Assembly: GCF_003024805.1 (NCBI RefSeq)
Contig: NZ_PUEC01000028.1
Span: 1-47,542 of the forward strand
Source: Duncaniella muris
GTDB taxonomy: Bacteria > Bacteroidota > Bacteroidia > Bacteroidales > Muribaculaceae
Direction of reading: 5' to 3'
DNA length: 47,542 nt
The translations under genes and the position numbers were made by a program. The notes beneath the pieces are model-generated. The model ran no database searches. It was not told the DNA's origin and worked only from the letters and a program-made list of their open reading frames with translations. Shown here piece after piece: positions 7,144 to 36,659 of this stretch (positions are counted from its first letter, which is position 1; each line of letters begins with the position of its first letter).

Positions 7144-7704
7144 CTATTTACGATCTCTGAGAGCAGGTGCATCGGGACGTTCGGAATGATTTTTATTCAG
7201 ATATTTGTAATATTCATGTGTCCCGTTGCGTGCACTTTCAAATGCTTCTTCCATTAGACTATGATTGATTCTATAAATGGATGATTCAGTTCTTAATGCT
7301 ATAATGCTGTCAGTGTGATTATTGGTCTGCTGAAAGGAGTCTAATGTCCTATCGTAGCATTCTGCCGAGATGCCGAGATGCAGGGCCTCTGCTTTGCTTA
7401 ATTTTAGGATAAGATGTTCGTTTTCAACATAGCAATGTTTTAAAATGAGCATTCTTTCTTTCATTTGTGCACGGCCTTCGGGGGTTGATGCTAATTCGTG
7501 AAGCCTCTTTTGGTTGATTTCTGCAATTTGAGCGCGGCGTTTTTCCCAGTTTCTTTCAAATTCATCGGCTATGCGCGCTCTGTCGTTCGCTTCGATTGAT
7601 TCCCGGATTTCGTTGGCCTGATCGTTTTCTTCCGATTGTGTGCAGGATGCCATTCCCGCCGAGAGCAGCAGGGAGAGGATGAGGTGGGTGAGTGTCGCTT
7701 TCAT
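7144..7704 (-). CDS. Small predicted lipoprotein, charged and helical
   Basis: 186 aa, family not recognised. The lipoprotein signal ends GMASC, with C21 as the lipidated residue. The mature part is strongly charged and predicted helical, with NDRARIADEFERNWEKRRAQ forming a likely coiled coil. The start at 7704 is favoured because it opens a basic, hydrophobic signal. A good promoter lies about 70 bp upstream. The following TPR/TM protein probably belongs to the same transcript, suggesting an envelope-located pair. Confidence 0.6.
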   Translation of the reverse strand: MKATLTHLILSLLLSAGMASCTQSEENDQANEIRESIEANDRARIADEFERNWEKRRAQIAEINQKRLHELASTPEGRAQMKERMLILKHCYVENEHLILKLSKAEALHLGISAECYDRTLDSFQQTNNHTDSIIALRTESSIYRINHSLMEEAFESARNGTHEYYKYLNKNHSERPDAPALRDRK

Positions 7705-7771
7705 GTGATAATGTTTTTGGAGAGGTTAGACATGTGGCGGAATTCGGTCTGCAGCCTCGATCCCGACAATG

Positions 7772-7804
7772 CAAAGATACGACACGAATTGTGGTTTATG
7801 CAAA
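7772..7804 (-). promoter_or_regulatory. Promoter of the lipoprotein/TPR unit
   Basis: On the minus strand TTTG (7804-7801), a 21-nt spacer and TATCTTTG (7779-7772) match the Bacteroidetes primary sigma consensus exactly. Transcription would start near 7765, about 60 nt before the start codon. Confidence 0.75.
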
Positions 7805-7954
7805 TTTCGAGGGGGGCTGAATATTCTTCAGCCTGTTTTGTCGGGCGTTGAAAATCAGTGCGTTAGTCTGCGTTTTGTCGACGCGATTTTCTTCACCTCT
7901 CCGAAAGGGCTTTTTTCGCCCCGGAATCGGGAAGGAAAAAGCAGTCGGTCGGGC

Positions 7955-9865
7955 CTAATTTCTTTTTGATTTCTGATAGGGATAGGTGGCCTGGCGAGGG
8001 AATAGGCGCTGGAGCAGATCGGGACGCCGCAGGCGCTGAAGAGAGCGGATGAGGTCTGGCCGGTAGGCGCGGTCATACCAGAAGAAATATTTTCGCTGTG
8101 CCTGCTTTTGCTCAGGGCTGACGGCTGTGAATACTCTTTCGCCTGTGTAAGGATGGTAGCCGGTATAGTAGATCTCGGTCGAGAGGGTCATCGGGGTAGG
8201 GGTGAAGTCCTGAATTTGTTCGAGATGCAGATTGAGTTCTTTGGTCTCGGCGGCAAGCTCGGCCATGTCGACTTCGCGGCATCCGGGATGGGAGGATATG
8301 AAGTAGGGGATCAGCTGCTGTCGGAGCCCGTGGCGCGAGTTTATGCGGTCAAAGAAGCGGCTGAATTCATGATAGAGCTGGAAAGAGGGCTTGCGCATAA
8401 GGTTGAGCACAGTGTCGGAGGTGTGTTCCGGCGCCACTTTCAGACGTCCGGAGACGTGGCGGGTGATCAGCTCTTCATTATATGTGCGGTTTGTCTCGTC
8501 TATGCGGCGGTCGCCAGTGTGGTGCATGGAAAGATCATAGCGCACGCCGCTGCCGATGAATGATTTCTTTATGCCCGGCAAGCTGTCTATGGCATGGTAG
8601 AGGTCGAGCAGCGGCCCGTGGTCGGTGTTGAGATTCGGGCAGACTTTGGGGTGCAGACACGAGGGCTTCAGACACTTGGCGCAGATGCTTTTGTCTTTGC
8701 CTCCGAGGCTATACATGTTGGCGCTCGGACCGCCGATGTCGCTCAGATAGCCTTTGAAGTCGGGCATCCGGGTGACTTCGCGGGCTTCGCGGAGCACAGA
8801 CTCCTTGCTCCGTGAGGCTATGAACTTGCCCTGATGGGCTGAGATGGTGCAGAACGAACATCCGCCGAAACATCCGCGGTGGATGTTGACCGAATGTCGT
8901 ATCATCTCATAGGCCGGAATGCGCTTGTCCTTGTAGCGCGGGTGGGGCAGGCGGGTGTAGGGGAGGTCAAACGATGCGTCGATCTCTCCGGTGGTCATGG
9001 GCGGATACATCGGGTTGACTTTCACCCAGAAGCCGCCGTCGTGGCGCTGCCAGAGCACACGTCCGTTCATCGAATTGCTCTGCTGCTCGATGTGGCGGAA
9101 GTTTTCGGCCTGCAGGCGCTTGTCGCGCAGGCAGTCGGCAAAGGAGTGGAGTACTATGTCATCATCGCCTGCCCGGAAATCGGCATCGGGGATGCGGACC
9201 ACTGTCTGCGGTAGATCGCGGAGCGAGTCCACGCTCTCTCCGGCTTCCAGACGGCGGGCTATCTCTATGACTGACTTTTCGCCCATGCCATAGTTTATGA
9301 GATCGGCCTTGCAGTCGGCGAGCAGCGACGGGCGCAGGCGGTCTTCCCAGTAGTCATAGTGTGAAAGCCGGCGCATCGACGCCTCGATGCCTCCGGCTAT
9401 TATGGGGGTGTCGGGGAAGAGGTCGCGGAGGATTGCCGAGTAGACTATGGTCGGATAGTCGGGGCGGGCACCGTGGCGTCCGCCGGGGGTATATGCGTCG
9501 TCGCTGCGTCTGCGGCGGGCGGCGGTGTAGTGGTTGACCATCGAGTCCATTGCTCCGGCCGATACACCGAAGAATAGACGCGGGGCGCCGAATTTACGGA
9601 AATCGCGCAGATCGTCCTGCCAGTTTGGCTGGGGGACAAGCGCCACATTGTAGCCGGCGGCCTGGAGCGTGCGCCCAATGACGGCTGCCCCGAAAGAAGG
9701 GTGGTCTACGTAGGCATCGCCTGAGAAGATGACCACATCGACGTGGTCCCAGCCGAGAGCCTTCATTTCCTTGACCGAGGTGGGCAGATAGCGGTCGGCG
9801 CCGGGATATATGATTCGCTGCTGTGAAGCAGCTGCGGTTTTTATGTTTTTTTTCTGTTCGTTCAT
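7955..9865 (-). CDS. ygiQ: YgiQ family radical SAM protein
   Basis: 636 aa. The N-terminal region (about 35-290) resembles a B12-binding-like fold. The radical SAM core follows, with the 4Fe-4S motif C332-x3-C336-x2-C339 in GCFGGCSFC. Later cysteines ([17 protein letters not shown]) may hold a second metal site. The start of the conserved part ([20 protein letters not shown]) is characteristic of YgiQ. The substrate is unknown in all members I know of. Its start overlaps the uvrB stop by 4 bp (ATGA), so translation is coupled; a repair link is not established. The gene end lacks a clear T-run terminator. Confidence 0.9.
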
Positions 9866-12914: not shown

Positions 12915-14024
12915 TTAGAGTTCGGCAGCCTTGAGTTTTTCGGCGTTTTCGGCTATGGTCAGCTGGTCGATCACATCCTGGATCTCTCCGTCCATGAAAG
13001 CCTGCAGGTTATAGATGGTGTAGTTGATACGGTGGTCGGTGATGCGTCCCTGCGGGTAGTTGTAGGTGCGGATTTTGGCCGATCGGTCGCCGGTCGAGAC
13101 GAGGGTTTTGCGCCGTGAGGCTATGTCGTCGATGTATTTCTGGTGTTCCTTGTCATAGATGAATGTGCGCAGGCGGCTGAGTGCGCGCTCCTTGTTCTTG
13201 GGCTGGTCGCGGGTTTCGGTACATTCGATCAGAATCTCTTCGCTCTCGCCGGTATTTGGGTTGCGCCACATGTAGCGCAGGCGCACACCTGATTCAACCT
13301 TGTTGACGTTCTGACCGCCTGCTCCGCCCGAACGGAAGGTGTCCCATTTGATCTCGCCCTCGTTGATTTCCACATCGAAGGCCTCTGCTTCGGGTAGCAC
13401 AGCTACAGTGGCGGCCGATGTGTGGACACGTCCCTGGGTCTCGGTTGCCGGAACTCGCTGCACACGGTGCACACCGCTCTCGTATTTCAGTGTGCCGTAA
13501 ACGTTGTCGCCTGTGACTGCAACCACAATTTCCTTGAATCCTCCGGCTGCCCCTTCGCTGAAACTGGTGACAGCCACATTCCAGCCTTTTGACTCGCAGT
13601 ATTTGACATACATCTTGTAAAGATCACCGGCAAAGATGGCGGCTTCGTCGCCTCCGGTGCCGCCGCGGATTTCGAGAATGGCATTCTTGCCGTCTTCCGG
13701 ATCGGCCGGAATCAGCAGTAGTTTTATTTCTTCCTCAATGGCCGGTATGGCCTCGGTGGCTTCGTCAAGCTCCTCTTTGGCCATGTCGCGGAGTTCAGGG
13801 TCATTTTCAGACGCAAGCACCTCGCGGGCTTCGTCGATGTTGCCTAAAAGCGCGCGGTAACGGCGTGTCACAGCCGTGAGTTTTTCAAGATCCTTATACT
13901 CTTTGGTCAGGCGGACATAGCGTTTCATGTCCTGGATCACAGAGGGGTCTGTGATCAGAGTTCCCACTTCCTCGAAGCGGGCCTCGATGCCGTCCAGCCG
14001 GGTCAAAAGGGAATTTTCTGCCAT
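12915..14024 (-). CDS. prfA: Peptide chain release factor 1
   Basis: 369 aa. RF1 reads UAA and UAG and triggers peptidyl-tRNA hydrolysis. The GGQ loop is [11 protein letters not shown]; its Gln is normally N5-methylated by PrmC. The PAT tripeptide in [11 protein letters not shown] identifies RF1 rather than RF2 (which has SPF). The N-terminal helical domain and [16 protein letters not shown] are standard. It is the first gene of a minus-strand group with pyrF, transcribed away from thrA. On the minus strand TACCTTTG (14052-14045) gives a good -7 element, but no TTTG stands at the right distance. Confidence 0.97.
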
Positions 14025-14156
14025 ATATCAAATGCTTTTGACTGCAAAGGTACGAAAAAAATGCCGAAAAGCCCGCAGCGAAACAAATCGTGAAACAAAT
14101 CGATACGATCTATTTTATTTTATTGCAAAACTGTGGTGGAGAATTGGAAATTTGAT

Positions 14157-14164
14157 TATCTTTG
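14157..14164 (+). promoter_or_regulatory. -7 element of the threonine operon
   Basis: TATCTTTG matches TAnnTTTG exactly. No good TTTG stands 19-21 nt upstream. Transcription would start near 14171, about 100 nt before the chosen thrA ATG. I see no leader peptide rich in Thr/Ile codons and no convincing attenuator. Confidence 0.5.
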
Positions 14165-14270
14165 TCATTTGAATAAAAACTAATCCTAATTTTGAGCAAA
14201 GCCGATGGCTGACGATCCGTTTGTCTGGATGTGGCCACCGGCGGAAACCATTCAACCACACATTATTATA

Positions 14271-16703
14271 ATGAAAGTATTAAAATTCGGCGGGACATCC
14301 GTAGGTTCCGCGAACAGTATTCTTAATCTGAAGAATATTGTTGAGAGTCAGGATTTCCCGGTTGTTGTAGTAGTGAGCGCCCTTGGAGGTGTCACAGATC
14401 TTCTCATCAAGACGGCAAGAACAGCGTCAGAAGGCAATGAGGCCTATAAGGATATGTTTCAGGCCATAGTCCGCCGTCATCATGACATGATCAATGATGT
14501 GATAACAGACGGACGGGAGGATCTTCTTCTGGAAACAGATGCGTTGCTTGCAGAGCTTTCATCGATATATCATGGGGTGTATCTCATCCGTGATCTCAGC
14601 CCCAAGACTCAGGCTACCATAGTCAGCTATGGCGAGCGGCTGAGCAGCCGTATTGTGGCACGCCTGATCACAGACGCAGAGCTGCACGATTCACGGACTT
14701 TTATAAAGACAGAGCGCAAGCATGGCCGTTCGCTGCTTGACAGTGAGCTGACACGCAGACTTGTGGTTGAGGAATTCGGACCGAAAACGCTTTGCGGGAA
14801 AATACACATAGTGCCGGGTTTCATCAGTTCGGATCGCGATTCAGGCGAAGTGACAAATCTCGGTCGAGGCGGCAGTGATTACACGGCTTCGATCATAGCG
14901 GCGGCGCTTGGTGCGGAAGCTCTTGAGATATGGACCGACGTTGACGGATTCATGACCGCAGACCCGCGTGTCATTCCGACGGCCTACACAATCAACGCGC
15001 TCAGCTATGTCGAGGCTATGGAACTTTGCAACTTCGGCGCGAAGGTGATCTATCCGCCTACCATATATCCGGTTTGTGTCAACAATATTCCCATCTATGT
15101 AAAGAACACGTTCAATCCGCAGCTTCCGGGCACCGTTATCCGCAATGAGATAGAGGATGACCGCAAGCCGATCAAGGGTATATCAAGCATCAGCGGCACC
15201 TCGCTCATAACCGTGACAGGTCTGTCGATGGTCGGTGTGATCGGTGTGAACCGCCGCATCTTCACAGCTCTGGCCGACAATGGCATCTCAGTCTTCATGG
15301 TCAGCCAGGCTTCATCTGAAAACTCGACTTCGATCGGTGTGCGTGACGAGGATGCCGCTGCCGCCGTAGAGGTTCTTGATAATGAGTTTGCCAAGGAGAT
15401 CGAAGAGGGGGCCATGTTCCCTATGCACGTTGAAAGCGGTCTGGCTACAGTGGCGATTGTGGGTGAGAACATGAAGCATACTCCAGGTATAGCCGGCAAG
15501 CTGTTCGGCACTCTGGGTCGCAGCGGCATCAGCGTAATTGCCTGCGCACAGGGCGCCAGCGAGACAAACATCTCGTTTGTGGTTCATGGAGACTATCTGC
15601 GCAAGTCGCTCAACGTGATTCATGACTCATTCTTCCTGAGTGAATACAAGGAACTCAACCTCTTTATATGCGGTGTCGGCACTGTAGGCGGTATGCTGAT
15701 AGAGCAGATCCGCAGCCAGCAGGAAAAACTGATGCAGACCCACCGGCTGAAACTCAATGTGGTCGGAATCGCCTCAAGCCACAAGGCTGTGTTCAGCCGC
15801 GCAGGCATTGATCTGGCAACCTACAGAGAGCAGCTTGAGGCGAGTCCCGAAAGTTCGCCCGAACGTCTGCGCGACGGAGTTGTGGGTATGAATATCTTCA
15901 ACAGCGTCTTTGTAGACTGCACCGCAAGCAAGGAGGTGGCCGAACTTTATCAGACATTCCTTGACAACAACATCTCGGTTGTCGCGGCCAACAAGGTTGC
16001 GGCATCGAGCAGTTATGAGACTTACCGCAGGCTGAAATCCACAGCTCTTCAGCGTGGCGTGAAATATCTTTTCGAAACGAACGTTGGAGCGGGTCTGCCT
16101 ATTATCGGCACCATCAACGATCTCGTTTCGTCAGGCGACCGCATTCTGAAAATCGAGGCAGTGCTGAGCGGAACACTCAACTTCATCTTCAATGCCATTT
16201 CAGATAAGGTTCCTTTCTCCGAAACAGTGCGTCTGGCCAAAGAACTCGGCTACAGCGAGCCTGATCCGCGTATAGACCTCAGCGGTCAGGACGTGGTGCG
16301 CAAGCTGGTGATTCTTACCCGTGAAGCCGGCTATAAGGCCGAGCAGGACGAAGTGGAAAAGCACCTTTTTGTGCCTGACGAGATGTTTGGCGGTTCGCTT
16401 GAAGACTTCTGGAGGAAACTCCCTGAGCTTGATGCCGATTTCGAGGCGCGCCGTCAGGTGCTCTCGGCTGAAGGCAAGCGCTGGAGGTTTGTGGCGAAGA
16501 TGGAAAACGGAGAGATGAGCGTAGGCCTGCAAGCCGTTGACAGCAGACATCCGTTCTACGGTCTTGAAGGTTCCAACAATATAGTTCTGCTCACCACCGA
16601 GCGCTATCATGAATATCCGATGCTCATCCAGGGTTACGGAGCCGGAGCCGAGGTGACAGCGGCAGGCGTGTTTGCCAACATAATGTCAACCGCCAACAAC
16701 TGA
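14271..16703 (+). CDS. thrA: Bifunctional aspartate kinase / homoserine dehydrogenase I
   Basis: 810 aa, close to E. coli ThrA (820). It carries out the first and third steps from aspartate to threonine. The kinase domain begins at once with MKVLKFGGTSVGS and continues through GRGGSDYTASI. Two ACT domains follow (about 310-450; VTGLSMVGVIGVNRRIF, VAIVGENMKHTPGIAGKLF), the usual site of threonine feedback. The dehydrogenase has the NAD(P) loop LFICGVGTVGGML and catalytic-domain VLSGTLNFIF. An in-frame ATG 22 codons earlier (14205) would add an unrelated MADDPFVWMWPP tail; the 14271 start fits the family. It leads the operon with the PGM-like gene and thrC. Confidence 0.96.
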   Translation: MKVLKFGGTSVGSANSILNLKNIVESQDFPVVVVVSALGGVTDLLIKTARTASEGNEAYKDMFQAIVRRHHDMINDVITDGREDLLLETDALLAELSSIYHGVYLIRDLSPKTQATIVSYGERLSSRIVARLITDAELHDSRTFIKTERKHGRSLLDSELTRRLVVEEFGPKTLCGKIHIVPGFISSDRDSGEVTNLGRGGSDYTASIIAAALGAEALEIWTDVDGFMTADPRVIPTAYTINALSYVEAMELCNFGAKVIYPPTIYPVCVNNIPIYVKNTFNPQLPGTVIRNEIEDDRKPIKGISSISGTSLITVTGLSMVGVIGVNRRIFTALADNGISVFMVSQASSENSTSIGVRDEDAAAAVEVLDNEFAKEIEEGAMFPMHVESGLATVAIVGENMKHTPGIAGKLFGTLGRSGISVIACAQGASETNISFVVHGDYLRKSLNVIHDSFFLSEYKELNLFICGVGTVGGMLIEQIRSQQEKLMQTHRLKLNVVGIASSHKAVFSRAGIDLATYREQLEASPESSPERLRDGVVGMNIFNSVFVDCTASKEVAELYQTFLDNNISVVAANKVAASSSYETYRRLKSTALQRGVKYLFETNVGAGLPIIGTINDLVSSGDRILKIEAVLSGTLNFIFNAISDKVPFSETVRLAKELGYSEPDPRIDLSGQDVVRKLVILTREAGYKAEQDEVEKHLFVPDEMFGGSLEDFWRKLPELDADFEARRQVLSAEGKRWRFVAKMENGEMSVGLQAVDSRHPFYGLEGSNNIVLLTTERYHEYPMLIQGYGAGAEVTAAGVFANIMSTANN

Positions 16704-19376: not shown

Positions 19377-19964
19377 ATGGCAACCTGGTACGTTTATCAG
19401 AACAATGTCCAGACAGGCCCTGTGAGCGAAGATCAGCTTTCAGGCATGGGACTTACGCCGGCCACTCTGGTATGGCGCGAAGGTATGGAACAATGGCAGC
19501 CGGCCGGGCAGGTGCCCGAACTGTCATTCCTGTTTGAAGCTCCTGCAGGTGAAGGATCATCCTTCACAACCACGCCCCCTCCCTCGCCCGGAGCAGAGGC
19601 TTATGCCGGAACCAGACAGTATCAGAACGCACCCGGCGGAGCGCAATATCAGGGCGCGCAAGGCGGTCAGCAATATCAGAATGCCCCCGGCGCAGCCTAT
19701 CCACCCGCAGGTGCTTACATACCCGCCTCCGGCAAGGACAAGACCACAGCCGGAATCCTGGCCATACTCCTTGGTTTCTTCGGTGCGCAGTATTTCTATC
19801 TCGGCAAAATCGGAGCCGCGATACTGACTATCGTGCTCTCATTCGTCACCTGTGGTATCTGGAATCTGCTGACATTCGCACAGGGCATTGTCATGCTCAC
19901 AATGTCTCAGGAACAGTTTGACCGGAAATACGTCTATACCAACAGCACCTTCCCCTTGTTCTGA
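19377..19964 (+). CDS. GYF_2 and TM2 domain membrane protein
   Basis: 195 aa. Residues 1-50 form a GYF_2 domain (ATWYVYQNNVQTGPVS...WREGMEQWQPAG), a likely protein-interaction module. Residues about 60-118 are a low-complexity linker with repeated QYQNAPGG / QYQGAQGG units rich in Pro, Gly and Gln. Residues about 120-175 are a TM2 domain: GKDKTTAGILAILLGFFGAQYFYLG, then a second hydrophobic helix. The GYF part should face the cytoplasm. The combination is common in Bacteroidetes, but no molecular function is known to me. It is a single-gene unit with its own promoter. Confidence 0.8.
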   Translation: MATWYVYQNNVQTGPVSEDQLSGMGLTPATLVWREGMEQWQPAGQVPELSFLFEAPAGEGSSFTTTPPPSPGAEAYAGTRQYQNAPGGAQYQGAQGGQQYQNAPGAAYPPAGAYIPASGKDKTTAGILAILLGFFGAQYFYLGKIGAAILTIVLSFVTCGIWNLLTFAQGIVMLTMSQEQFDRKYVYTNSTFPLF

Positions 19965-20214: not shown

Positions 20215-22077
20215 ATGGCAGAAAAGAAAGAAAAATTGTTTGAACAGTTTCCTCCCGTGAGCACCGCAGAGTGGAAAGCCAAGGTGGAAGCTGACCTTAA
20301 GGGCGCACCGTTTGACAAGAAACTCGTGTGGCGCACCAACGAAGGCTTCAATGTTCAGCCGATGTATCGTCTGGAGGACATCGAAGATCTCAAGACCACC
20401 AATTCGCTTCCCGGTGAATTTCCCTATGTGCGAGGAACACGCACTGACAATGACTGGCTCACCCGCCAGGAAATCATCGCCGAGACTCCCGCCGAAGCAA
20501 ATGAAAAAGCACTTGATGTCCTGACCAAAGGTGTCACTTCACTCGGTTTCCATGTTGACGAACCGACTGCCGAAACACTTCAGATTCTTCTCAAGGGCAT
20601 TGATCTCGGCAAGGTTGAGGTAAACTTCACCTGCTGCATCAAGAAGGCCCTTCCTCTGGCAAAGGCTCTTGTCGAATATATCAAAGCCAACGGCTGTGCC
20701 GAAACATTCAAAGGCTCGATTGATTTCAATCCTTTCCGCAAACCCCTGCGCAAGGGTGTGGCGTTCGAGGCTGCGGTTCTCGCTTCAATGTCATGCGAAC
20801 TGCTTGACGCTGTCAAGGAAGTTGCCGGTCTCCGTGTCCTTTCAGTTGACAGCGACATGCTTTCCAATGCCGGAGCTTACATTTTCCAGGAACTCGGCTA
20901 TGCTCTTTCATGGGGCGCACAGTGGCTGACACTCCTGACCGAGGCTGGCCGCAGCGCCGACGAGGTAGCTGCCCGCATCAAGTTCAACATGGGCATCTCG
21001 TCGAACTTCTTCATGGAACTCGCGAAGTTCCGCGCAGCCCGTATGCTCTGGGCCCAGATTGTCAAGCAGTATGGCGCGTCAGACGAAGCCGCAAAGATGA
21101 TGGCCCACGCCTCTACCTCACGCTTCAATCAGACTCTTTACGATGCACACGTCAACCTGCTCCGTTCTCAGACCGAGGCCATGTCAGCAGCTCTTGCCGG
21201 TGTTGACTCCATCACATCGCTTCCCTTCGATCTTCCCTATAAGACACCCGATGAATTCTCTGAACGAATTGCCCGCAACCAGCAGTTCCTTCTGAAAGAA
21301 GAAAGCCATCTTGACAAGGTGATCGACCCTGCCGGCGGCAGCTACTATGTGGAGACCCTCACTGTCTCAATCGCGAAAGAAGCCTGGAAACTCTTCCTTG
21401 AAGTAGAAGACAAGGGCGGCTTCCTTGCCTGCTGCAACAATGACGAGGTTCAGAAAGTGATCCGTGAAAGCGCCGAAAAGCGTCACACCGACGTGGCCCG
21501 CCGCAAAGAGATACTTCTCGGAACCAACCAGTATCCCAATATCAACGAAATGGCTGCCGACAAGATCGTGGATCTCAAAGGCTCGCTTGCCTGCGCCTGT
21601 GGCGGTCAGGGCGACGGATGCGAAACTCCCGCCGGACTCCCCACCAAGCGCGCTGCAAGTGACTTTGAATCACTCCGTCTTGCCACAGAAGCCGCTTCAA
21701 ACCGTCCGAAAGTGTTCATGCTGACCATCGGAAATCTTGCCATGCGTCTTGCCCGCGCGCAGTTCTCCACCAACTTCTTCGGCTGTGCAGGCTATGAGAT
21801 CATTGACAACCTTGGCTTTGACACTGTAGAACAGGGCGTTGACGCAGCTCTTGAAAAGGGTGCCGACATCGTGGTGCTCTGCTCAAGCGACGACGAATAT
21901 GCCGAATTCGCACCCGCTGCATTCAAATATCTCGACGGACGCGCTGAATTCGTAGTTGCCGGCGCACCTGCCTGCACCGACGATCTCAAGGCAATCGGAA
22001 TCAACGACTTCGTTCATGTGCGTTGCAATGTGCTCGACACACTCCGCGCTTTCAATGACAAACTCCTCAAGAAGTAA
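20215..22077 (+). CDS. mutA: Methylmalonyl-CoA mutase, small (beta) subunit
   Basis: 620 aa. Non-catalytic partner of MutB in the heterodimeric mutase, which interconverts succinyl-CoA and (R)-methylmalonyl-CoA during propionate formation. The TIM-barrel part matches MutB-like sequence (GGSYYVETLT, SNFFMELAKFRAARMLWAQIV). The C-terminal B12-like domain lacks the DxHxxG cobalt-ligand motif, as expected for the small subunit. A Cys-rich linker (ACACGGQGDGCETP) joins the domains. It has a consensus promoter and leader hairpin, and mutB follows after 27 bp. Confidence 0.95.
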   Translation: MAEKKEKLFEQFPPVSTAEWKAKVEADLKGAPFDKKLVWRTNEGFNVQPMYRLEDIEDLKTTNSLPGEFPYVRGTRTDNDWLTRQEIIAETPAEANEKALDVLTKGVTSLGFHVDEPTAETLQILLKGIDLGKVEVNFTCCIKKALPLAKALVEYIKANGCAETFKGSIDFNPFRKPLRKGVAFEAAVLASMSCELLDAVKEVAGLRVLSVDSDMLSNAGAYIFQELGYALSWGAQWLTLLTEAGRSADEVAARIKFNMGISSNFFMELAKFRAARMLWAQIVKQYGASDEAAKMMAHASTSRFNQTLYDAHVNLLRSQTEAMSAALAGVDSITSLPFDLPYKTPDEFSERIARNQQFLLKEESHLDKVIDPAGGSYYVETLTVSIAKEAWKLFLEVEDKGGFLACCNNDEVQKVIRESAEKRHTDVARRKEILLGTNQYPNINEMAADKIVDLKGSLACACGGQGDGCETPAGLPTKRAASDFESLRLATEAASNRPKVFMLTIGNLAMRLARAQFSTNFFGCAGYEIIDNLGFDTVEQGVDAALEKGADIVVLCSSDDEYAEFAPAAFKYLDGRAEFVVAGAPACTDDLKAIGINDFVHVRCNVLDTLRAFNDKLLKK

Positions 22078-22104
22078 TACGTCAACCCCCATCAACATTC
22101 AGAC

Positions 22105-24240
22105 ATGAAACCCAATTTCAAAGAAATAGACATCGTTAACGACGCTTTCGGCGATCTCCGTGTCCCCGAAACTCAGGGGGAAGACTGGATCACCCCGGAA
22201 CTTATCCCCGTCAAGCCCATCTATACCAAGCAGGATCTTGAAGGACTCGAACACCTCAACTACGTGTCAGGTATTCCTCCCTTCCTCCGTGGCCCGTACA
22301 GCGCCATGTATCCTCTGCGCCCCTGGACCATCCGCCAGTATGCAGGCTTCTCCACCGCAGCTGAGTCAAACGCCTTCTACCGCCGCAACCTTGCAGCCGG
22401 TCAGAAGGGTCTGTCAGTGGCCTTTGACCTTGCCACACACCGCGGCTATGACGCAGACCACGAACGTGTGGTAGGTGACGTGGGCAAAGCCGGCGTTTCG
22501 ATCTGCTCGCTTGAAGACATGAAAGTCCTTTTCGAGGGAATTCCCTTGAACAAGATGTCAGTCTCCATGACAATGAACGGAGCCGTTCTCCCCGTGCTCG
22601 CATTCTATATCAACGCAGGTCTCGAACAGGGAGCCAAACTCGAAGAAATGGCCGGTACCATCCAGAACGACATCCTAAAGGAATTCATGGTGCGCAACAC
22701 CTATATATATCCGCCGGAATTCTCGATGCGAATCATCGCCGACATCTTCGAATACACTTCGCAGAACATGCCCAAATTTAACTCGATCTCCATCTCCGGC
22801 TACCACATGCAGGAAGCCGGTGCGACATGCGACATCGAGCTTGCCTACACTCTCGCTGACGGTCTCGAATATCTCCGTGCCGGTATCAATGCAGGCATCG
22901 ACATCGACGCCTTCGCTCCGCGTCTGTCGTTCTTCTGGGCTATTGGCATGAACTACTTCATGGAAGTGGCCAAGATGCGTGCGGCCCGTCTTCTCTGGGC
23001 CAAGATCGTCAAGCAGTTCAACCCGAAGAACCCTAAATCGCTTGCCCTGCGCACCCATTCTCAGACTTCAGGCTGGTCGCTTACCGAGCAGGACCCCTTC
23101 AACAACGTGGGCCGTACATGTATCGAGGCAATGGGTGCCGCTCTCGGCCACACCCAGTCGCTCCACACCAACGCGCTTGACGAAGCCATCGCCCTCCCGA
23201 CCGACTTCTCCGCCCGTATCGCCCGCAACACCCAGATCTACATCCAGGAAGAGACTATGGTCACCAAGCAGGTCGATCCCTGGGGCGGCAGCTACTATGT
23301 GGAAGCCCTCACAAACGAGATCGCACACCGTGCCTGGGAACACATCCAGGAAATCGAGAAACTCGGCGGTATGGCCAAGGCCATCGAATCAGGTCTGCCC
23401 AAAATGCGTATCGAAGAAGCCTCGGCCCGCACTCAGGCCCGTATCGACTCAGGCCGTCAGACAATCGTTGGTATCAACAAATACCGTCTCGACCACGAAG
23501 ATCCCATCGACATCCTTGAAATCGACAACACCGAAGTGCGCAAAGACCAGGTGGCCCGTCTCGTCGACCTCAAGGCTCATCGCGACGAAGAGGCAGTCAA
23601 GAAAGCCCTCGCCGCCATCACCGAGTGTGTCCGCACCAAGGAAGGCAACCTCCTCGACCTCGCTGTCAAGGCTGCCGGTCTGCGCGCCACATTGGGCGAA
23701 ATCTCCGATGCCTGCGAAGACGTCGTAGGCCGTTACAAAGCAGTAATCAGAACCATTTCAGGCGTGTACTCATCAGAAACCAAGGCTGATCCTGACTTCG
23801 TGAAGGCTCAGCAGATGTGCGAAGAATTCGCCAAGCGCGAAGGACGTCAACCCCGTATCATGATCGCCAAGATGGGCCAGGACGGTCACGACCGCGGTGC
23901 CAAGGTGGTAGCCACCGGCTATGCCGACTGCGGTTTTGACGTTGACATGGGCCCGCTGTTCCAGACTCCCGCCGAAGCAGCCCGCCAGGCGGTTGAGAAC
24001 GACGTCCACATTCTCGGTGTCTCTTCACTTGCAGCAGGTCACAAGACCCTGATTCCGCAGGTGATCGAGGAACTCAAGAAACTCGGCCGCGAGGACATCA
24101 TGGTGACTGCCGGCGGTGTTATTCCCGCTCAGGACTATGATTTCCTTTACAAGGCAGGTGTCGCCGCAATCTTCGGCCCCGGTACCCGCATTCCGGTTTC
24201 GGCAATCAAGATGCTTGAGCTTCTTGAAGGAGAAGAATAA
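22105..24240 (+). CDS. mutB: Methylmalonyl-CoA mutase, large (alpha) subunit
   Basis: 711 aa, normal length. The catalytic adenosylcobalamin subunit. The barrel has the substrate-site stretch [20 protein letters not shown] and the [15 protein letters not shown] region. The C-terminal cobalamin domain starts near 585 with the histidine-ligand motif [11 protein letters not shown], followed by GVSSLAAGH. Both halves are intact. It ends the mutAB operon; no epimerase or meaB-type chaperone gene is adjacent, so these must be elsewhere. Confidence 0.97.
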
Positions 24241-24291: not shown

Positions 24292-24381
24292 CGGCAGGGG
24301 GACGCATTTCAGAGCGCCCGCGCAGACGGCCGATTACCGGTCGCCTGCTGTGGAGGCGCTTTGAAAAGCGTCCCTCTGTCG
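24292..24381 (+). terminator. Large branched hairpin after mutAB
   Basis: CGGCAGGGGGACGC (from 24292) pairs with AGCGTCCCTCTGTCG, continuing inward through GAGCGCC/GGCGCTTTG. The loop holds a second stem, CGGCCG/CGGTCG around ATTAC. GTGTTTATTGTTTTT follows, so it works as a terminator on the plus strand. The outer arms resemble the hairpin at 28189-28224, so both may belong to one repeat family. Confidence 0.65.
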
Positions 24382-25799: not shown

Positions 25800-28148
25800 A
25801 TGAAAAGATTTGCAATATTCACCTTGGTGGCATTGCTCTGCTCTATGTTCGGATTTGCCGAGACCATAGATCGTCTTGAAGCATTTCCGGGAGCCGAGGG
25901 CTATGGCCGCTACACGTCAGGTGGTCGCGGTGGAAAAGTGCTTAAAGTAACAAAACTAACCGATGACGGATCTGAAGGCACATTGCGTTGGGCCTGCAAT
26001 CAGGCCGGTGCAAGAACAATCGTTTTTGAAGTGTCAGGAAACATTCATCTTGAAAGCGCTCTTGATCTGAAAAACGGAAATGTGACCATCGCAGGCCAGA
26101 CCGCTCCCGGTGACGGCATCTGCATTACCGACTATCCGTTTTCAATCAAGGCCAATAATGTGATCATCCGTTATATCCGTTTCCGTCTTGGTAACAAAAA
26201 CGTGACCAAAGATGGTGCAGACGGCTGGGATGGACTTGGAGCCCTTGATCAGCGCGACATCATCATTGACCATTGCTCGGTGAGCTGGAGTATTGATGAA
26301 TGTCTTTCGTTCAGCGGTACTCATAACACAACAGTCCAGTGGTGTATCGTATCTCAGAGCCTTGTCAATTCGGGCCACAGCAAAGGCAATCACGGATATG
26401 GTGGCAACTGGGGTGGCGAATATGGTTCATATCACCACAATCTTCTTGCTCACCACACATCGCGTGCTCCGCGCCTTGGCCCGCGTCCCACCACTCAGCT
26501 CAATGAGGTGATGGACATGCGTAACAATGTCATGTTCAACTATTCTGGCGAAAGTTGCTACGGCGGTGAGGGCATGAATGTCAACATTGTCAATAATTAC
26601 TATAAGCCCGGACCTGGAAATAAGTATGTCAATGGCAGCAACAATAAGAGATTCCGCATTGCCGGAATCGGAATCCGCACTGTGGATTATGTGCTTGACA
26701 AAGACAAGATCGCAGCGTCTTATAACAGTCTGATGGGTACCTCTATCAATAAAGGCAATGTAGAAGGCTATTTCAGCAAAGGCAGACCCGGAGTTCAGAT
26801 TGCAGGACGGTCATATGACATAGCGGATGACAATACAATCAATATAGATGGCAAGATTCTTACTATCACCTGGAATGCCTATAAGCCCGCATTGCACAAG
26901 ATCGGCACATATTATGTCGATGGAAACAATAACTCGAATTTCGGGCAGGTGGAAGGTGATAACTGGGGTTTGGGCATATATAACCAGATCACCTGGAGCG
27001 AATGGGACGGACTTGCTTCGGTAAGCTCTTCTCAGAATAATATCAAAAATGATATGAAGCTTGACCGCCCGATTGAATATGTCTATACCACCACCCATAG
27101 TGCTAAAGATGCCTATGCTAAAGTGCTTGATCATGCGGGAGCTTCTCTGAAACGTGACGCTCTTGATAAAATGATCATCGAAGAGGCTCGAAATAATAAA
27201 GCAGCTTCTACAGGATCAGGCCTTGACGCAGGTTTTATCAACACTCCTGATGATATAGTATATCCTGCCGGAACCGCACTGGAAGAAAATGGCAAACTTC
27301 CGATACTTGCTAATGTGGCTGCGCCTGTAGATACAGACGGCGATGGCATGCCTGACAAGTGGGAGCAGGAAAATGGCCTTGATCCCAATGATCCTTCTGA
27401 CGGAGCCAAAGCCACGGCATCAGGATTTACTAATCTTGAGATTTATCTGAATTCTTTGGTTGAACATATCACCGCCTCTCAGAACGAGGCCGGCAAGATG
27501 CTCAACGGCGATCTGACTTTCGCTGACGATGCTGTCGAGCTCCCGAAATACGAGGCGCCTGTTGTAGAGACTTTCGAATATGAAATCTCAAAATCTACCA
27601 GCCATATGATGAGAGACGATCCCCAGCCTTTCCTTTTCAGTGATGGAATCTCAGTCTCTTGTACAGATGCCAGCCGAAAATATTCAAACGGCTCATCTGC
27701 AACAGCTGACTATGTGAAGTTTGGCTCAGGAAGCAACAGAACCTGGACAATAAAGCTTCCGGAAGGAAAGGTTGCGACTGAGCTGACCTTTATCGGCTGG
27801 GCCAACAATGACAATAATCAGTCATATGTGGCTTCAGTTAATAATGATAAATTTGCTGCTGACGATTATGTTTTTCCGATCAGAAATATCAATGAGGCGG
27901 CAAAGCACACAATCAATGTCACAGAACCTTCAAATGAAGTCAAAGTCATTTTCGGTGGCTCGGAAGTCGTTATTCAGATAATGATCAAGGCTAAGGAAGC
28001 AGACCAGTCAGGCATCGAGGACATCGTCATTGATCCCGCCAAGCCTCAGGGCAACGGTAAGATCTACAACATCATGGGTGTCGAAGTCAAGGAGCCCCTG
28101 CTCCCCGGCATTTATATCCGTGACGGAAAGAAGTTCATTGTGAAATAA
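25800..28148 (+). CDS. Secreted pectate lyase-like protein (PL1-type) with C-terminal sorting-like tail
   Basis: 782 aa. Signal peptide 1-20. Residues about 28-440 are a right-handed beta-helix of the PL1 pectate-lyase type: FPGAEGYGRYTSGGRGG start, TIAGQTAPGDG, IDHCSVSWSIDEC, HGYGGNWGG, and HHTSRAPRLGP with the likely catalytic Arg. Family enzymes cleave uronate polysaccharides by beta-elimination. A Ca-binding DTDGDGMPDKWE linker of the thrombospondin type-3 kind starts at 511. A beta-sandwich-like region follows. The end (KIYNIMGVEVKE...GIYIRDGKKFIVK, about 748-782) resembles T9SS type-A-like tails. No SusC/SusD genes flank it. Codons are more A/T-ending than in the neighbouring metabolic genes. 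Confidence 0.85.
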   Translation: MKRFAIFTLVALLCSMFGFAETIDRLEAFPGAEGYGRYTSGGRGGKVLKVTKLTDDGSEGTLRWACNQAGARTIVFEVSGNIHLESALDLKNGNVTIAGQTAPGDGICITDYPFSIKANNVIIRYIRFRLGNKNVTKDGADGWDGLGALDQRDIIIDHCSVSWSIDECLSFSGTHNTTVQWCIVSQSLVNSGHSKGNHGYGGNWGGEYGSYHHNLLAHHTSRAPRLGPRPTTQLNEVMDMRNNVMFNYSGESCYGGEGMNVNIVNNYYKPGPGNKYVNGSNNKRFRIAGIGIRTVDYVLDKDKIAASYNSLMGTSINKGNVEGYFSKGRPGVQIAGRSYDIADDNTINIDGKILTITWNAYKPALHKIGTYYVDGNNNSNFGQVEGDNWGLGIYNQITWSEWDGLASVSSSQNNIKNDMKLDRPIEYVYTTTHSAKDAYAKVLDHAGASLKRDALDKMIIEEARNNKAASTGSGLDAGFINTPDDIVYPAGTALEENGKLPILANVAAPVDTDGDGMPDKWEQENGLDPNDPSDGAKATASGFTNLEIYLNSLVEHITASQNEAGKMLNGDLTFADDAVELPKYEAPVVETFEYEISKSTSHMMRDDPQPFLFSDGISVSCTDASRKYSNGSSATADYVKFGSGSNRTWTIKLPEGKVATELTFIGWANNDNNQSYVASVNNDKFAADDYVFPIRNINEAAKHTINVTEPSNEVKVIFGGSEVVIQIMIKAKEADQSGIEDIVIDPAKPQGNGKIYNIMGVEVKEPLLPGIYIRDGKKFIVK

Positions 28149-28188
28149 TAAGGGGGTGACAATCCCTTGGACATGAAATATTAACTCT

Positions 28189-28224
28189 CACGGCAGGGAC
28201 GCTTTAAAAGGCGTTCCTGCCGTG
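28189..28224 (+). terminator. Hairpin between the two lyase genes
   Basis: CACGGCAGGGACGC (28189-28202) pairs with GCGTTCCTGCCGTG (28211-28224), with one G-T pair, and is followed by AATTTT. It probably attenuates transcription into the downstream fusion gene. It excludes GTG 28222 as that gene's start. Confidence 0.75.
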
Positions 28225-28242
28225 AATTTTATGAAAGTGTAT

Positions 28243-31221
28243 ATGATGAAACGGATTAATTTGCTGACAGCCGCCATACTGCTGGCATCAAGTGGCTATG
28301 CCTTGCCTCCTGACGGATTCCCGCGTTCGATGCAGCCTGACCGTCAGCGTAAGGTGATGCAAAAAGAAACAGTGCCCTCCGTATGGATCAGACCTTCGGT
28401 AGCCGCTTTTCCAGGTGCAGAGGGTTTTGGCATGTGGACCACCGGCGGCCGTGGGGGGCGGGTGTATCATGTCACGACTCTTGATGACAATGACCGGCCC
28501 GGTTCATTCCGCTATGCCTGCAATCAGGCCGGTCCGCGGACAATCGTTTTTGATGTCGACGGCACTATTTTCCTGAAATCGCCCCTGCGGCTTGAAAACC
28601 CAGATGTGACGATAGCCGGACAGACCGCACCCGGCGATGGTGTCTGCATTGCCGACTATCCGTTTCTCATCCAGGCCGACAATGTGATAGTCCGTTTCAT
28701 GCGTTTTCGTCTCGGCGACCGTGAAGTGGCCCATCACGAAGGCGACGGACTCGGCGGAAGCGGTCATCGCAATGTTATGGTTGACCATTGCTCTGTGAGC
28801 TGGAGCATAGACGAGTGCATCTCGGTCTACGGTATGACCGACTTTACCGTGCAGTGGTGCATCGCATCCCACAGTCTCCATAACAGCGGCCATCAGAAAG
28901 GAGCCCACGGCTACGGCGGAAACTGGGGTGGCAGCGGCGCGAGCTATCATCACAACCTTGTGGCAAACCATACGTCGCGCACACCGCGTCTCGGTCCGAG
29001 CCCGCATACCCAGACTGACGAGCGCATGGATCTGCGTAACAACGTGATCTATAACTACGGTTCAAACGGGTGTTATGGAGGCGAGGGCATGACAGTGAAC
29101 ATAGTCAACAATTATTTCAAACCCGGCAAGACCACAAACACCATGCCTGAGCGCATAGCCGGTCCCGGAATCCGCACCGTGCAGTATTGTCTCAACGGCC
29201 GCGGTCTTGCTGAAGACTATAACCGTCTGTTCGGCACAAGCCTGAGCCGCGATGATGTCAAAGGCTTGCGTGATGGCAAGGGGCGCAAGGGTGTGAACCG
29301 CGTGAGTGTCGGCGGCCGCGTTTTTGAGATTGACATGGCCGACAACAGTATCGAAGTCGACGGACATAAACTGAAAATCGGTTGGAACGTATGGCGCCCG
29401 ATGCTTCACAAATGGGGCCGCTTTTATGTGAGCGGCAACGAGAACCACGACATTGCGGCAGTCGGAGCCGACAACTGGGGCGTAGGTGTCAGACGCCAGA
29501 TAAAACCTGCCGGCTGCGATGGTTATTGGGATAAATCCATAGCAGATGAAATCCGTCTCAATGAGCCTATGGACTTTGAGACGGTGACTACCCATACGGC
29601 GCGTGATGCCTATGAACGGGTGCTCGACTGCGCCGGAGCTTCGCTTCGCCGTGATGCCTATGACAGTCTTGTCATCAGTGACGTGCGTGAGGGCAATGCG
29701 TCATTCGGGAAAAACGGCATCATTGACACTCAGGATGAGGTTGTCTATGCCGACGGATCGCGCGGCTGGCCTGCCCTGAACAGCGGTGTGGCTCCGGCTG
29801 ACACTGACGGCGATGGAATTCCCGATGACTGGGAGAGGGCCAACGGACTTGATCCGGATAATGCTTCTGACGGCAGTCTCATTGGTAAGTCAGGCTACAG
29901 TAATCTTGAACTCTATATGAATTCTCTGGTTGCCGAAGTAATGGAGGCCGGACTGAAGGGAGGAGCACAAAGCGCCCAGATCCGCGAGACATCTTCTTCT
30001 GATTTCGGACGTAGGTTTGAAGACCGCACTCTGCGTGTCGACTATCTCTTTACTGCCACTCCGGCCGGTGACAGGGGTGTTTCTCTTGCCGGTCAGTCAG
30101 GTATCGACGGATGGGCCGGCCGACGCCATAGAATGTCGGAACTGCCGTTGCTCGGAAACGGCACGGTCACAATGGTCTCGGAGGCAGACGGTGACACGCT
30201 CTACCGCACATCCTTCTCATCTCTTTATCATGAATGGCTTACCACCGCAGAGGCTTCAGAAGTGGCCAAGGCTTTCGAGCACACGGTGCTTCTGCCTTAT
30301 CCGGTCTCACCTGCCCGCATAAGCATCGAGCTGCTTGACAACCGCCATAAGCCTATTGCCTCGATGACCCACAGGCTTGATCCGAAAGATATTCTGATTA
30401 CAAGGAAAGGCCACGGCCGGGTGGCGGAGCACCGCTATATCCACCGTGGGGGTGATCCGAAGAACGCCATAGATGTGGCTATTCTTGCAGAGGGCTATAC
30501 AAGAGCGGAGATGGACAGTTTCTATCGTCATGCCCGTACGGCTGTGGATGCCATACTTTCCTACGAACCGTTCAAGTCGCGGGCCGACAAGTTCAATTTT
30601 GTCGCCGTGGCCACTCCTTCGGCTGACTCAGGAGTCAGTGTGCCCCGTCTGGGCGAATGGAAGTCGACAGCATTCTCTTCGCATTTCAGCACATTCTATT
30701 CAGACCGCTATCTGACGAGCCTGCATGTCAGGGATATTCATGACTCTTTGGCCAGAATACCCTATGAACATATCATAATTCTGGCAAACACTCCGGAGTA
30801 TGGCGGCGGAGGCATATATAACAGCTATACGCTGACCACATCGCGACATGCGAATTTCCGGCCTGTGGTTGTTCATGAATTCGGCCATAGTTTCGGCGGT
30901 CTGGCCGATGAATATTTCTACGAGACCGAGGCCAATGACGAGGCCTATCCCGCAGATGTGGAGCCTTGGGAACCGAACATCACCACACTTGTGGATTTTG
31001 AAAGCAAGTGGAAAGATCTGATTCCCAAAGGAACGCCGCAGCCCACACCGGTATCGGAAGCGTCGAAATGGCCGGTAGGACTTTATGAAGGAGGGGGGTA
31101 CTCTTTTCATGGAGTATATCGTCCGGCCGATGACTGCCGCATGCGCACCAACACAGCTCCGGACTTCTGTCCGGCCTGCCGCAGAGCCATGAGCCGCCTG
31201 ATCGATTTCTACACAGAATAG
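28243..31221 (+). CDS. Secreted fusion: PL1-type lyase plus M64 (IgA-type) metallopeptidase
   Basis: 992 aa from ATG 28243; 28231 and GTG 28222 are in-frame alternatives, the latter inside a hairpin. A signal peptide comes first (MMKRINLLTAAILLASSGYA). A beta-helix lyase of the same type as the preceding protein spans about 55-470: FPGAEGFGMWTTGGRGG, TIAGQTAPGDG, DHCSVSWSIDEC, HGYGGNWGG, HTSRTPRLGP. DTDGDGIPDDWE starts at 520. The rest has the layout of a whole M64 peptidase: an N-terminal beta domain (about 592-720), then the catalytic domain with zinc motif HEFGHSFGGLADEY (H878, H882, D889; base E879). Four Cys flank the end region (CRM...CPAC). The frame is open across the junction. The T9SS-like tail of the first lyase is absent. 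Confidence 0.85.
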   Translation: MMKRINLLTAAILLASSGYALPPDGFPRSMQPDRQRKVMQKETVPSVWIRPSVAAFPGAEGFGMWTTGGRGGRVYHVTTLDDNDRPGSFRYACNQAGPRTIVFDVDGTIFLKSPLRLENPDVTIAGQTAPGDGVCIADYPFLIQADNVIVRFMRFRLGDREVAHHEGDGLGGSGHRNVMVDHCSVSWSIDECISVYGMTDFTVQWCIASHSLHNSGHQKGAHGYGGNWGGSGASYHHNLVANHTSRTPRLGPSPHTQTDERMDLRNNVIYNYGSNGCYGGEGMTVNIVNNYFKPGKTTNTMPERIAGPGIRTVQYCLNGRGLAEDYNRLFGTSLSRDDVKGLRDGKGRKGVNRVSVGGRVFEIDMADNSIEVDGHKLKIGWNVWRPMLHKWGRFYVSGNENHDIAAVGADNWGVGVRRQIKPAGCDGYWDKSIADEIRLNEPMDFETVTTHTARDAYERVLDCAGASLRRDAYDSLVISDVREGNASFGKNGIIDTQDEVVYADGSRGWPALNSGVAPADTDGDGIPDDWERANGLDPDNASDGSLIGKSGYSNLELYMNSLVAEVMEAGLKGGAQSAQIRETSSSDFGRRFEDRTLRVDYLFTATPAGDRGVSLAGQSGIDGWAGRRHRMSELPLLGNGTVTMVSEADGDTLYRTSFSSLYHEWLTTAEASEVAKAFEHTVLLPYPVSPARISIELLDNRHKPIASMTHRLDPKDILITRKGHGRVAEHRYIHRGGDPKNAIDVAILAEGYTRAEMDSFYRHARTAVDAILSYEPFKSRADKFNFVAVATPSADSGVSVPRLGEWKSTAFSSHFSTFYSDRYLTSLHVRDIHDSLARIPYEHIIILANTPEYGGGGIYNSYTLTTSRHANFRPVVVHEFGHSFGGLADEYFYETEANDEAYPADVEPWEPNITTLVDFESKWKDLIPKGTPQPTPVSEASKWPVGLYEGGGYSFHGVYRPADDCRMRTNTAPDFCPACRRAMSRLIDFYTE

Positions 31222-35912: not shown

Positions 35913-36659
35913 TCAGCCCAAAGTGCGCCTGGATATGAATTCTGCGAAAGTGTCTTTGTAGCTTTCGGATACCGGGATCTGTGTGCGCCCGAAAATGATG
36001 CGGTTGCGCTCAATTACTTTGATCCTGGATAGATTTACAATGTATGACCGGTGGACACGCATGAATAAGTCGGAAGGCAGCGTCTGTTCGAGCGCTTTCA
36101 TACTCAGGAGTGTCATTATGGATTTCTCTGATCCTTCGACGTAGATTTTGACGTAGTCTTTCAGGCCTTCGATATAGAGGATGTCGGCGATGCGGACCTG
36201 CACCAGCTTGTATTCGCTTTTGACGATTATATATTCTCCTGCCTTTTCCGGTGAAGAGACCTGCGATTGCAGTTTTGAGGAATCGGACTGGTGTTTCATC
36301 TCGTACCAGGCAAGGGCGCGCCTTGCGGCTGCAAGAAATTCCTCGTAGCTGACCGGTTTGAGCAGATAGTCGAGTGCGTTGACCCGGAAACCTTCAACCG
36401 CGTAGTCTGAATATGCCGTAGTAAATATGATGCGGGTGTCGGCAGGGATGATCCGGGCAAATTCGATGCCGTTCAGCTGGGGTATCTGTATGTCGAGAAA
36501 TACGATGTCGATATCGTTGTTGAGAATGGTGTAGATAGCGTCGCGAGGCGATGAAAATTCGCCGGCGATTTCAAGAAACGGTGTCTTTTCGATATATGAA
36601 CGGATGAGGCCTGATGCCAGGGGCTCGTCGTCGATCACGCAACAGCGAAGGGTCTGCAT
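35913..36659 (-). CDS. LytTR-family response regulator
   Basis: 248 aa. The receiver (about 5-120) has DDE near residue 10, phospho-acceptor D56 in IVFLDIQIPQLNG, and the switch stretch IIFTTAYSDYAVEGF with a late KPVS lysine. A linker with S/Q residues leads to a LytTR DNA-binding domain (about 145-245; IVKSEYKLVQV, DILYIEGLKDYVKIY, FMRVHRSYIVNL). It forms an operon with the sensor gene 33 bp upstream. The target genes are not evident here. Confidence 0.92.
   Translation of the reverse strand: MQTLRCCVIDDEPLASGLIRSYIEKTPFLEIAGEFSSPRDAIYTILNNDIDIVFLDIQIPQLNGIEFARIIPADTRIIFTTAYSDYAVEGFRVNALDYLLKPVSYEEFLAAARRALAWYEMKHQSDSSKLQSQVSSPEKAGEYIIVKSEYKLVQVRIADILYIEGLKDYVKIYVEGSEKSIMTLLSMKALEQTLPSDLFMRVHRSYIVNLSRIKVIERNRIIFGRTQIPVSESYKDTFAEFISRRTLG

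Follow-up and report, generated by a model that had tools for sequence, protein, structure and literature searches.

The 47,542-nucleotide stretch of Duncaniella muris DNA analysed here (the window; contig NZ_PUEC01000028.1 of assembly GCF_003024805.1) encodes on its forward strand, at 28243-31221, a 992-residue protein in which a PL1-type polysaccharide lyase is followed in the same chain by an entire M64 peptidase. The same fusion is present in four further genomes of the genus. A single origin in the ancestor of seven sampled genomes, followed by loss in two of them, is supported but not proven. Strong purifying selection acts on both halves, neither of which is decaying. The parts are known, each with a solved relative, while the joint architecture is new within the literature searched: in line with an earlier note made from the DNA letters alone, a search of the open-access literature at the level of listings and abstracts found no description of a PL1-M64 fusion, most subscription papers lying outside that search.

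The frame is open from 28222 to 31221 without an internal stop, as claimed in the earlier note; it is counted here from the ATG at 28243, alternative starts lying at 28222 and 28231, and its assignment draws on Pfam, NCBIfam and PDB matches. Residues 1-20 (28243-28302) look, by eye, like a signal peptide, without a lipobox cysteine. The lyase, of PL1 subfamily 2 type, spans residues 53-572 (28399-29958); PDB entry 9BUJ matches over residues 53-318, and the end is placed from stand-alone PL1s. A short linker of about 14 residues (573-586; 29959-30000), delimited by aligning the five fusions with stand-alone PL1s, leads to the M64_N domain (residues 587-708; 30001-30366; PF16217, 2e-32) and to the M64 catalytic domain (residues 734-992; 30442-31218), which PF09471 matches over 734-940 (3.5e-63) and to which PDB 4DF9 aligns up to residue 991. 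The motifs singled out before, HGYGGNWGG, HTSRTPRLGP and HEFGHSFGGLADEY (residues 878-891; 30874-30915), are all in place.

The peptidase half is the more readily recognized. Both Pfam M64 domains score above their gathering cut-offs (214 bits for PF09471 and 111.8 bits for PF16217, against 26 and 27), and the zinc residues are kept, so the full M64 peptidase first proposed from the letters was found. The family motif HEXXHXXXGXXD reads H878-E-F-G-H882-S-F-G-G886-L-A-D889. With BF3526 of Bacteroides fragilis (PDB 4DF9, 9QDI) the peptidase half shares 58% identity; the residue roles given for that protein are taken from PMC12402451, as is all that is said of BF3526 and its relatives below. By alignment with that protein, H878, H882 and D889 would be the ligands of the catalytic zinc and E879 the base, while E890, C965, C976 and C979 correspond to the second zinc site; the peptide contacts E664, R822, Y823, Y853, G857 and Y891 are identical as well. 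In BF3526 numbering, E97/R255/Y256/Y286/Y324 and E323/C398/C409/C412 are kept, and two loop residues differ (D329 is E896 and M331 is N898 in the fusion). Thirteen zinc, base and peptide-contact positions are identical across the 22 M64-only and four fused rows of one alignment (A1). The 58% identity and the shared contact and second-zinc residues place the M64 half, as a prediction, in cluster CL-I of BF3526, within which similarity runs from 39 to 99% (PMC12402451). The fusion thus resembles BF3526 in its M64_N and M64 domains, its zinc, base and peptide-contact residues and its signal peptide; BF3526 differs in being a stand-alone enzyme, whereas here an entire PL1 enzyme precedes M64.

The lyase half matches PfPL1 of Pseudoalteromonas fuliginea (9BUJ), the first structure of PL1 subfamily 2 according to PMC11229556, with an E-value of 1.2e-64, or 5.4e-77 with an eight-row profile. 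This bears out the PL1-type lyase that the earlier note had read from its motifs, even though the Pfam PL1 model is silent. NCBIfam PelZ matches partially (1.5e-31; its 109.7 bits fall short of the cut-off of 840), and the match to VexL (PL1_13) is far weaker (4.2e-10). In HTSR246TPR, of which R246-T-P-R249 lies at 28978-28989, R246 aligns with Arg220 of PfPL1, one of two catalytic arginines (Arg220, Arg235) and the one proposed to abstract the C5 proton (PMC11229556). R246 and R249 are conserved in all nine PL1 rows of alignment A1. The loss of catalytic residues that the earlier note had contemplated is seen neither at R246 nor at the zinc and base positions of M64. The motif DTDGDGIPDDW (residues 520-538; 29800-29856) had been described as a calcium-binding linker. 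More probably it belongs to the lyase, as its C-terminal pseudo-EF-hand: the motif occurs in stand-alone PL1s, the TSP3_bac match is below its cut-off, and DKNKDGINDRW of PfPL1 aligns with it in a second segment, which by itself lacks significance (i-Evalue 1.1e+03). The likeness to PfPL1 therefore comprises the beta-helix core, the Arg220 equivalent and, probably, the pseudo-EF-hand. The difference is that PfPL1 stands alone and is encoded in a pectin locus, whereas here the lyase is fused and SusC/SusD proteins were not found among the window proteins scanned.

Searching other genomes, as the earlier note had proposed, recovered the fusion in G019, G020, G005 and G008, which with the genome of the window makes five of the 27 sampled genomes of the genus, at 75-97% identity; the nearest named record (L038) is 97% identical. 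The M64 half is matched in 12 of these 27, own genome included, and its frame exceeds 900 residues in five of the twelve. At the level of the family, M64 is matched in 116 of the 297 genomes sampled, and the fusion is rare, the same five alone having such a long frame; in the other 111 it reaches at most 625 residues, the next longest after the fusions. In the order, 266 of 393 genomes match, and among the matches listed only the frame of the window is that long. The locus survey, for which 80 of 314 named loci were kept, holds three fused genes (those of G019, G020 and G005), two separate M64 genes with a PL1 gene just upstream (G002 and G017) and 75 M64 genes without a PL1 frame in the flanking DNA, which is short for some. 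In the genome of the window M64 is matched once and PL1 in six frames, two of them in the window. Eleven other genomes of the genus, several of them incomplete, carry stand-alone PL1s that are 58-63% identical to the fused PL1 and gave no M64 match. Scans of viral contigs found relatives of neither half. The M64 genes of two records titled Enterocloster and Lachnospiraceae (L072, L051) group with those of Bacteroidales, and the records are probably mislabelled or misbinned.

The history of the fusion was approached with two trees. In the M64 tree (90 rows; seven loci were dropped as duplicates of named ones or of the window, as were frames in which fewer than about 360 residues matched), the window, G019, G017, G002, G020, G005 and G008 form one clade (100/99), split into window and G019 on one side and G017, G002, G020, G005 and G008 on the other, G002 being weakly placed (97/53). 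The five fused PL1s form one clade (100/100) in the PL1 tree (26 rows; pieces shorter than 350 residues were omitted, which concerns at least part of the split neighbour in G008). On the M64 tree two changes suffice for the fused label, and labels assigned by shuffling do equally well, so that the case for a single origin rests on a scar in G017. In that genome the M64 protein begins with a signal-peptide-like stretch, continues as VASPGAEGSDRYATG.R, which is like the mature start of a PL1, and passes directly into M64; the scar corresponds to about 16 residues at the start of a lyase. Compared with 14 PL1 starts it scores 53, a value that 0 of 5000 shuffles reach (maximum 35), and among 88 unfused M64 frames, some of them mutual copies, only the two copies from G017 score above 16. 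The scar therefore indicates that a lyase once stood there and was deleted in frame. G002, with a stand-alone M64 gene without scar behind a PL1 gene, is probably a second loss of the link, and both genomes keep a PL1 gene adjoining M64. Two independent fusions without loss are allowed by the tree alone, at the same two changes, but the scar favours one gain with later losses. An apparent open frame of 1136 in G017, which might have been taken for read-through, was rejected since a TGA ends the PL1 gene (frame 463). A supposed M64 remnant at the PL1 end in G004, matching to residue 617, proved to be a normal C-terminal tail aligned by chance.

The junction is informative about how the two genes were joined. 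Past the pseudo-EF-hand, many stand-alone PL1s continue with GGKMLTG or a comparable stretch. Of the 22 PL1s listed, 18 end in a tail of the kind YN.MG.EV..PL.PGIYIRDGKKFIVK; the remaining four, of a more distant branch, end otherwise. Traces of the GGKMLTG-like stretch persist in the fusions of G005, G008 and G020 (GGKLMGG, GGKVMGG and DGKLMDG), after which the mature start of M64 follows. The lyase tail and the M64 signal peptide are both absent at the junction, as expected if a deletion had joined a PL1 gene to an M64 gene next to it. The stand-alone PL1s of the genus (PL1A and PL1B type) are the same lyase, 55-63% identical, most of those listed having a C-terminal tail in the place where the fusion has its peptidase.

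The constraint on both halves is evident from the fused genes. When the window is compared with G019, the lyase shows a dN/dS of 0.054 and the peptidase one of 0.039, and over ten pairs of fused genes the ratio ranges from 0.039 to 0.127 for both halves; as dS exceeds 1.6 in all pairs except window-G019, the low level of these ratios is to be used and not their exact value. The starts in G020 and G005 are approximate, and G008 was cut at an internal methionine (425 instead of 533 PL1 codons).

We regard it as about an even chance that the fusion is an exported two-enzyme protein which scavenges pectin and peptides, the link being useful but not essential. The signal peptide would export it; the lyase would cut homogalacturonan by beta-elimination with Arg246 as the base; the peptidase would remove short N-terminal pieces, often after proline, from proteins that are already cut. 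The two reactions would proceed independently in the same compartment, the periplasm or just outside, on mixed plant cell-wall debris, and the tether would provide both enzymes in equal amounts at one location. Elsewhere the genome has a PL1 gene beside SusC/SusD-type genes and another beside a GH28-esterase, and since it holds these other pectin-type genes, pectin use is plausible for the organism. A 1399-codon frame (L144:9290-13486), in which a pectinesterase domain is combined with a PL1 match, is another multi-enzyme PL1 protein of this genome.

Several observations weigh against this picture. Both enzyme activities are predicted. Pfam, which recognized M64_N and Peptidase_M64 among the domains named in the earlier note, gave no pectate-lyase match at E up to 1 for either the fusion or its upstream paralogue PL1A. 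The model seems to miss this branch of PL1, because the four other PL1 frames of the genome are unmatched too, at E up to 0.01. AlphaFold models, built for the entire protein and for its lyase half, are poor (mean pLDDT 54.6 and 36.2). No SusC/SusD pair stands beside the gene among the 24 window proteins scanned, and a terminator-like hairpin between PL1A and the fusion makes their co-transcription unsure. On the evolutionary side, the tree does no better than shuffled labels, the G017 sequence has many Ns, the scar included, and G017, probably also G002, has lost the covalent link, from which it follows that the tether is not essential.

A neutral fusion is possible, somewhat less probable and not far behind: a deletion would have joined two neighbours, the enzymes would keep their old unrelated jobs, and the link would be of no use. 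The ordinary M64 gene fits this well, its frame being at most 625 residues in 111 of the 116 family genomes that have one, and G017 dispensed with the lyase half and kept M64. In 57 of the 80 named loci the flanking DNA holds at least one of five housekeeping-type genes, which we take to be AsnC, ThyA, FolA, GNAT and ExbD. Such surroundings fit well with M64 genes of unrelated function. They also fit the statement, in a 2025 study, that BF3526 homologues are not associated with carbohydrate genes (PMC12402451), to which the fusion clade is an exception. The retention of the fusion in five species under similar constraint on both halves speaks against a useless link, as does the PL1 gene that still stands directly beside M64 in G002 and G017.

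Unlikely, though attractive, is a joint attack on pectin-linked, proline-rich glycoproteins of the plant cell wall, in which the lyase would clear the pectin and the tethered peptidase would trim the proline-rich peptide. It is akin to the joint target that the earlier note had suggested, a protein bearing a uronate polysaccharide. Proteins of the plant wall contain much (hydroxy)proline, and some of them are bound to pectin. PL1_2 enzymes act on pectins (PMC11229556), BF3526 prefers cleavage after proline (PMC12402451), and given this preference a coupling to a single glycoprotein substrate may well appeal. The same enzyme, on the other hand, trims near the N-termini of pre-digested proteins, so that a direct attack of the M64 half on intact glycoproteins is unlikely by analogy, and an obligatory partnership is hard to reconcile with G017, where the link was lost, and with G002, where it probably was.

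That the lyase half is a mere pectin-binding or anchoring module for the peptidase appears very improbable. The silent Pfam model could be read in this way, as could the second catalytic arginine of PfPL1, Arg235, which falls on no arginine of the fusion in the chain numbering of the 9BUJ alignment and has no mapped equivalent. The invariance of R246, R249 and the DHCSVSWS.DE motif in all eight rows of alignment A3, fused and stand-alone together, speaks against it.

The idea of a protease for IgA or another host glycoprotein with a carbohydrate-active head owes most to the Pfam name of the family, 'IgA Peptidase M64', and we give it hardly any weight. BF3526, to which the M64 half is related as described, fails on intact IgA1, IgA2 and IgG1, and its group CL-I is separate from CL-V, that of the IgA protease ThomasA of Thomasclavelia ramosa (PMC12402451). 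Because BF3526 leaves intact IgA uncut and trims pre-digested proteins, the label of the family misleads here, and the link to IgA proteases drawn in the earlier note is not supported. IgA-protease chains match the fusion weakly (E about 1e-5, best stretch 57 residues); ThomasA has the M64 catalytic motif in common with it and differs in cluster and substrate mode. An assembly chimera, conceivable for a window taken from a 79-contig assembly, is rejected as next to impossible, since the assemblies of four other species carry the same fusion and G+C stays even over the junction, at 0.50-0.57 in blocks of 300 bases.

The gene order PL1-[PL1::M64]-LysM-barrel-SDR-response regulator is common to all five fusion genomes. 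In the window the nearest genes are PL1A, a stand-alone PL1 paralogue of 782 residues directly upstream (25800-28148, forward strand; 55% identity with the fused PL1), and, on the downstream side, a LysM protein. The rest of the 24 proteins scanned are housekeeping, membrane or regulatory, one being without a match. The window also encodes what we take to be a methylmalonyl-CoA mutase (20215-24240) and, presumably, a response regulator (35913-36659). The gap between PL1A and the fusion holds at 28188-28225, just before the start codons of the fusion, a hairpin of 17 pairs followed by ATTTT, nearly the same in L038; nine terminator-like hairpin sites were found against 5.1 expected. The hairpin, tried as a dispersed repeat, may be a terminator, a leader element or a short repeat: its sequence has one place in the genome at two mismatches and a second place in the window at three, where none was expected. 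Sequence related to it is found behind another gene, at 24352-24375.

The upstream PL1 genes may have a history of their own. Although the window and G019 share 97% identity in their fusions, their upstream PL1s (25800-28148 and L038:5741-8149) are far apart; that of the window is closest to its counterpart in G005 (73%), and that of G020 groups apart from the others, which suggests that the upstream gene was replaced or recombined. In the G008 locus (L131) the upstream PL1 (7410-9799) and the LysM gene (13367-15263) are split over frames, perhaps by read errors. Farther upstream in the window, a 27-base tandem repeat of about 2.9 copies lies at 19620-19696 within a GYF_2/TM2 gene.

PL1A also carries the C-terminal tail that the fusion lacks (28008-28145, forward strand). 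In a search of the genome with this tail, ten further places were found at E up to 1 (one at 5.4e-7, nine at 0.007-0.64), and all ten sit 0-11 residues from the end of a protein. These frames, in L145 and L148-L154 (contigs C9, C12, C18, C23, C39, C45 and C79), share the form SGI.DI..D...EYYNLQGVRV....L.PGIYI...G.KV.KVLVK, possibly a short sorting tail of the group. A SprA_N protein of the type IX translocon is encoded in the genome (3.9e-187; none in 14 control genomes), and the type IX tail model TIGR04183 has seven matches over its cut-off, PL1A not among them; it matched in three of the 14 controls, one over the cut-off. The SprB family search matched nowhere, controls included, and is uninformative. 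The PL1A tail may be a sorting signal, and if it sorts, the fusion would lack that route and may remain periplasmic. The secretion proposed in the earlier note thus stands as far as the signal-peptide-like start is concerned, and the destination could be the periplasm.

The fusion ties pectin breakdown physically to the CL-I type of M64 peptidase, a group common in Bacteroidales. If the two enzymes shared one substrate, a single protein would gain both sugar and amino acids from it. The clade as a whole is a natural experiment, in which close relatives show the same genes fused, adjacent or scarred.

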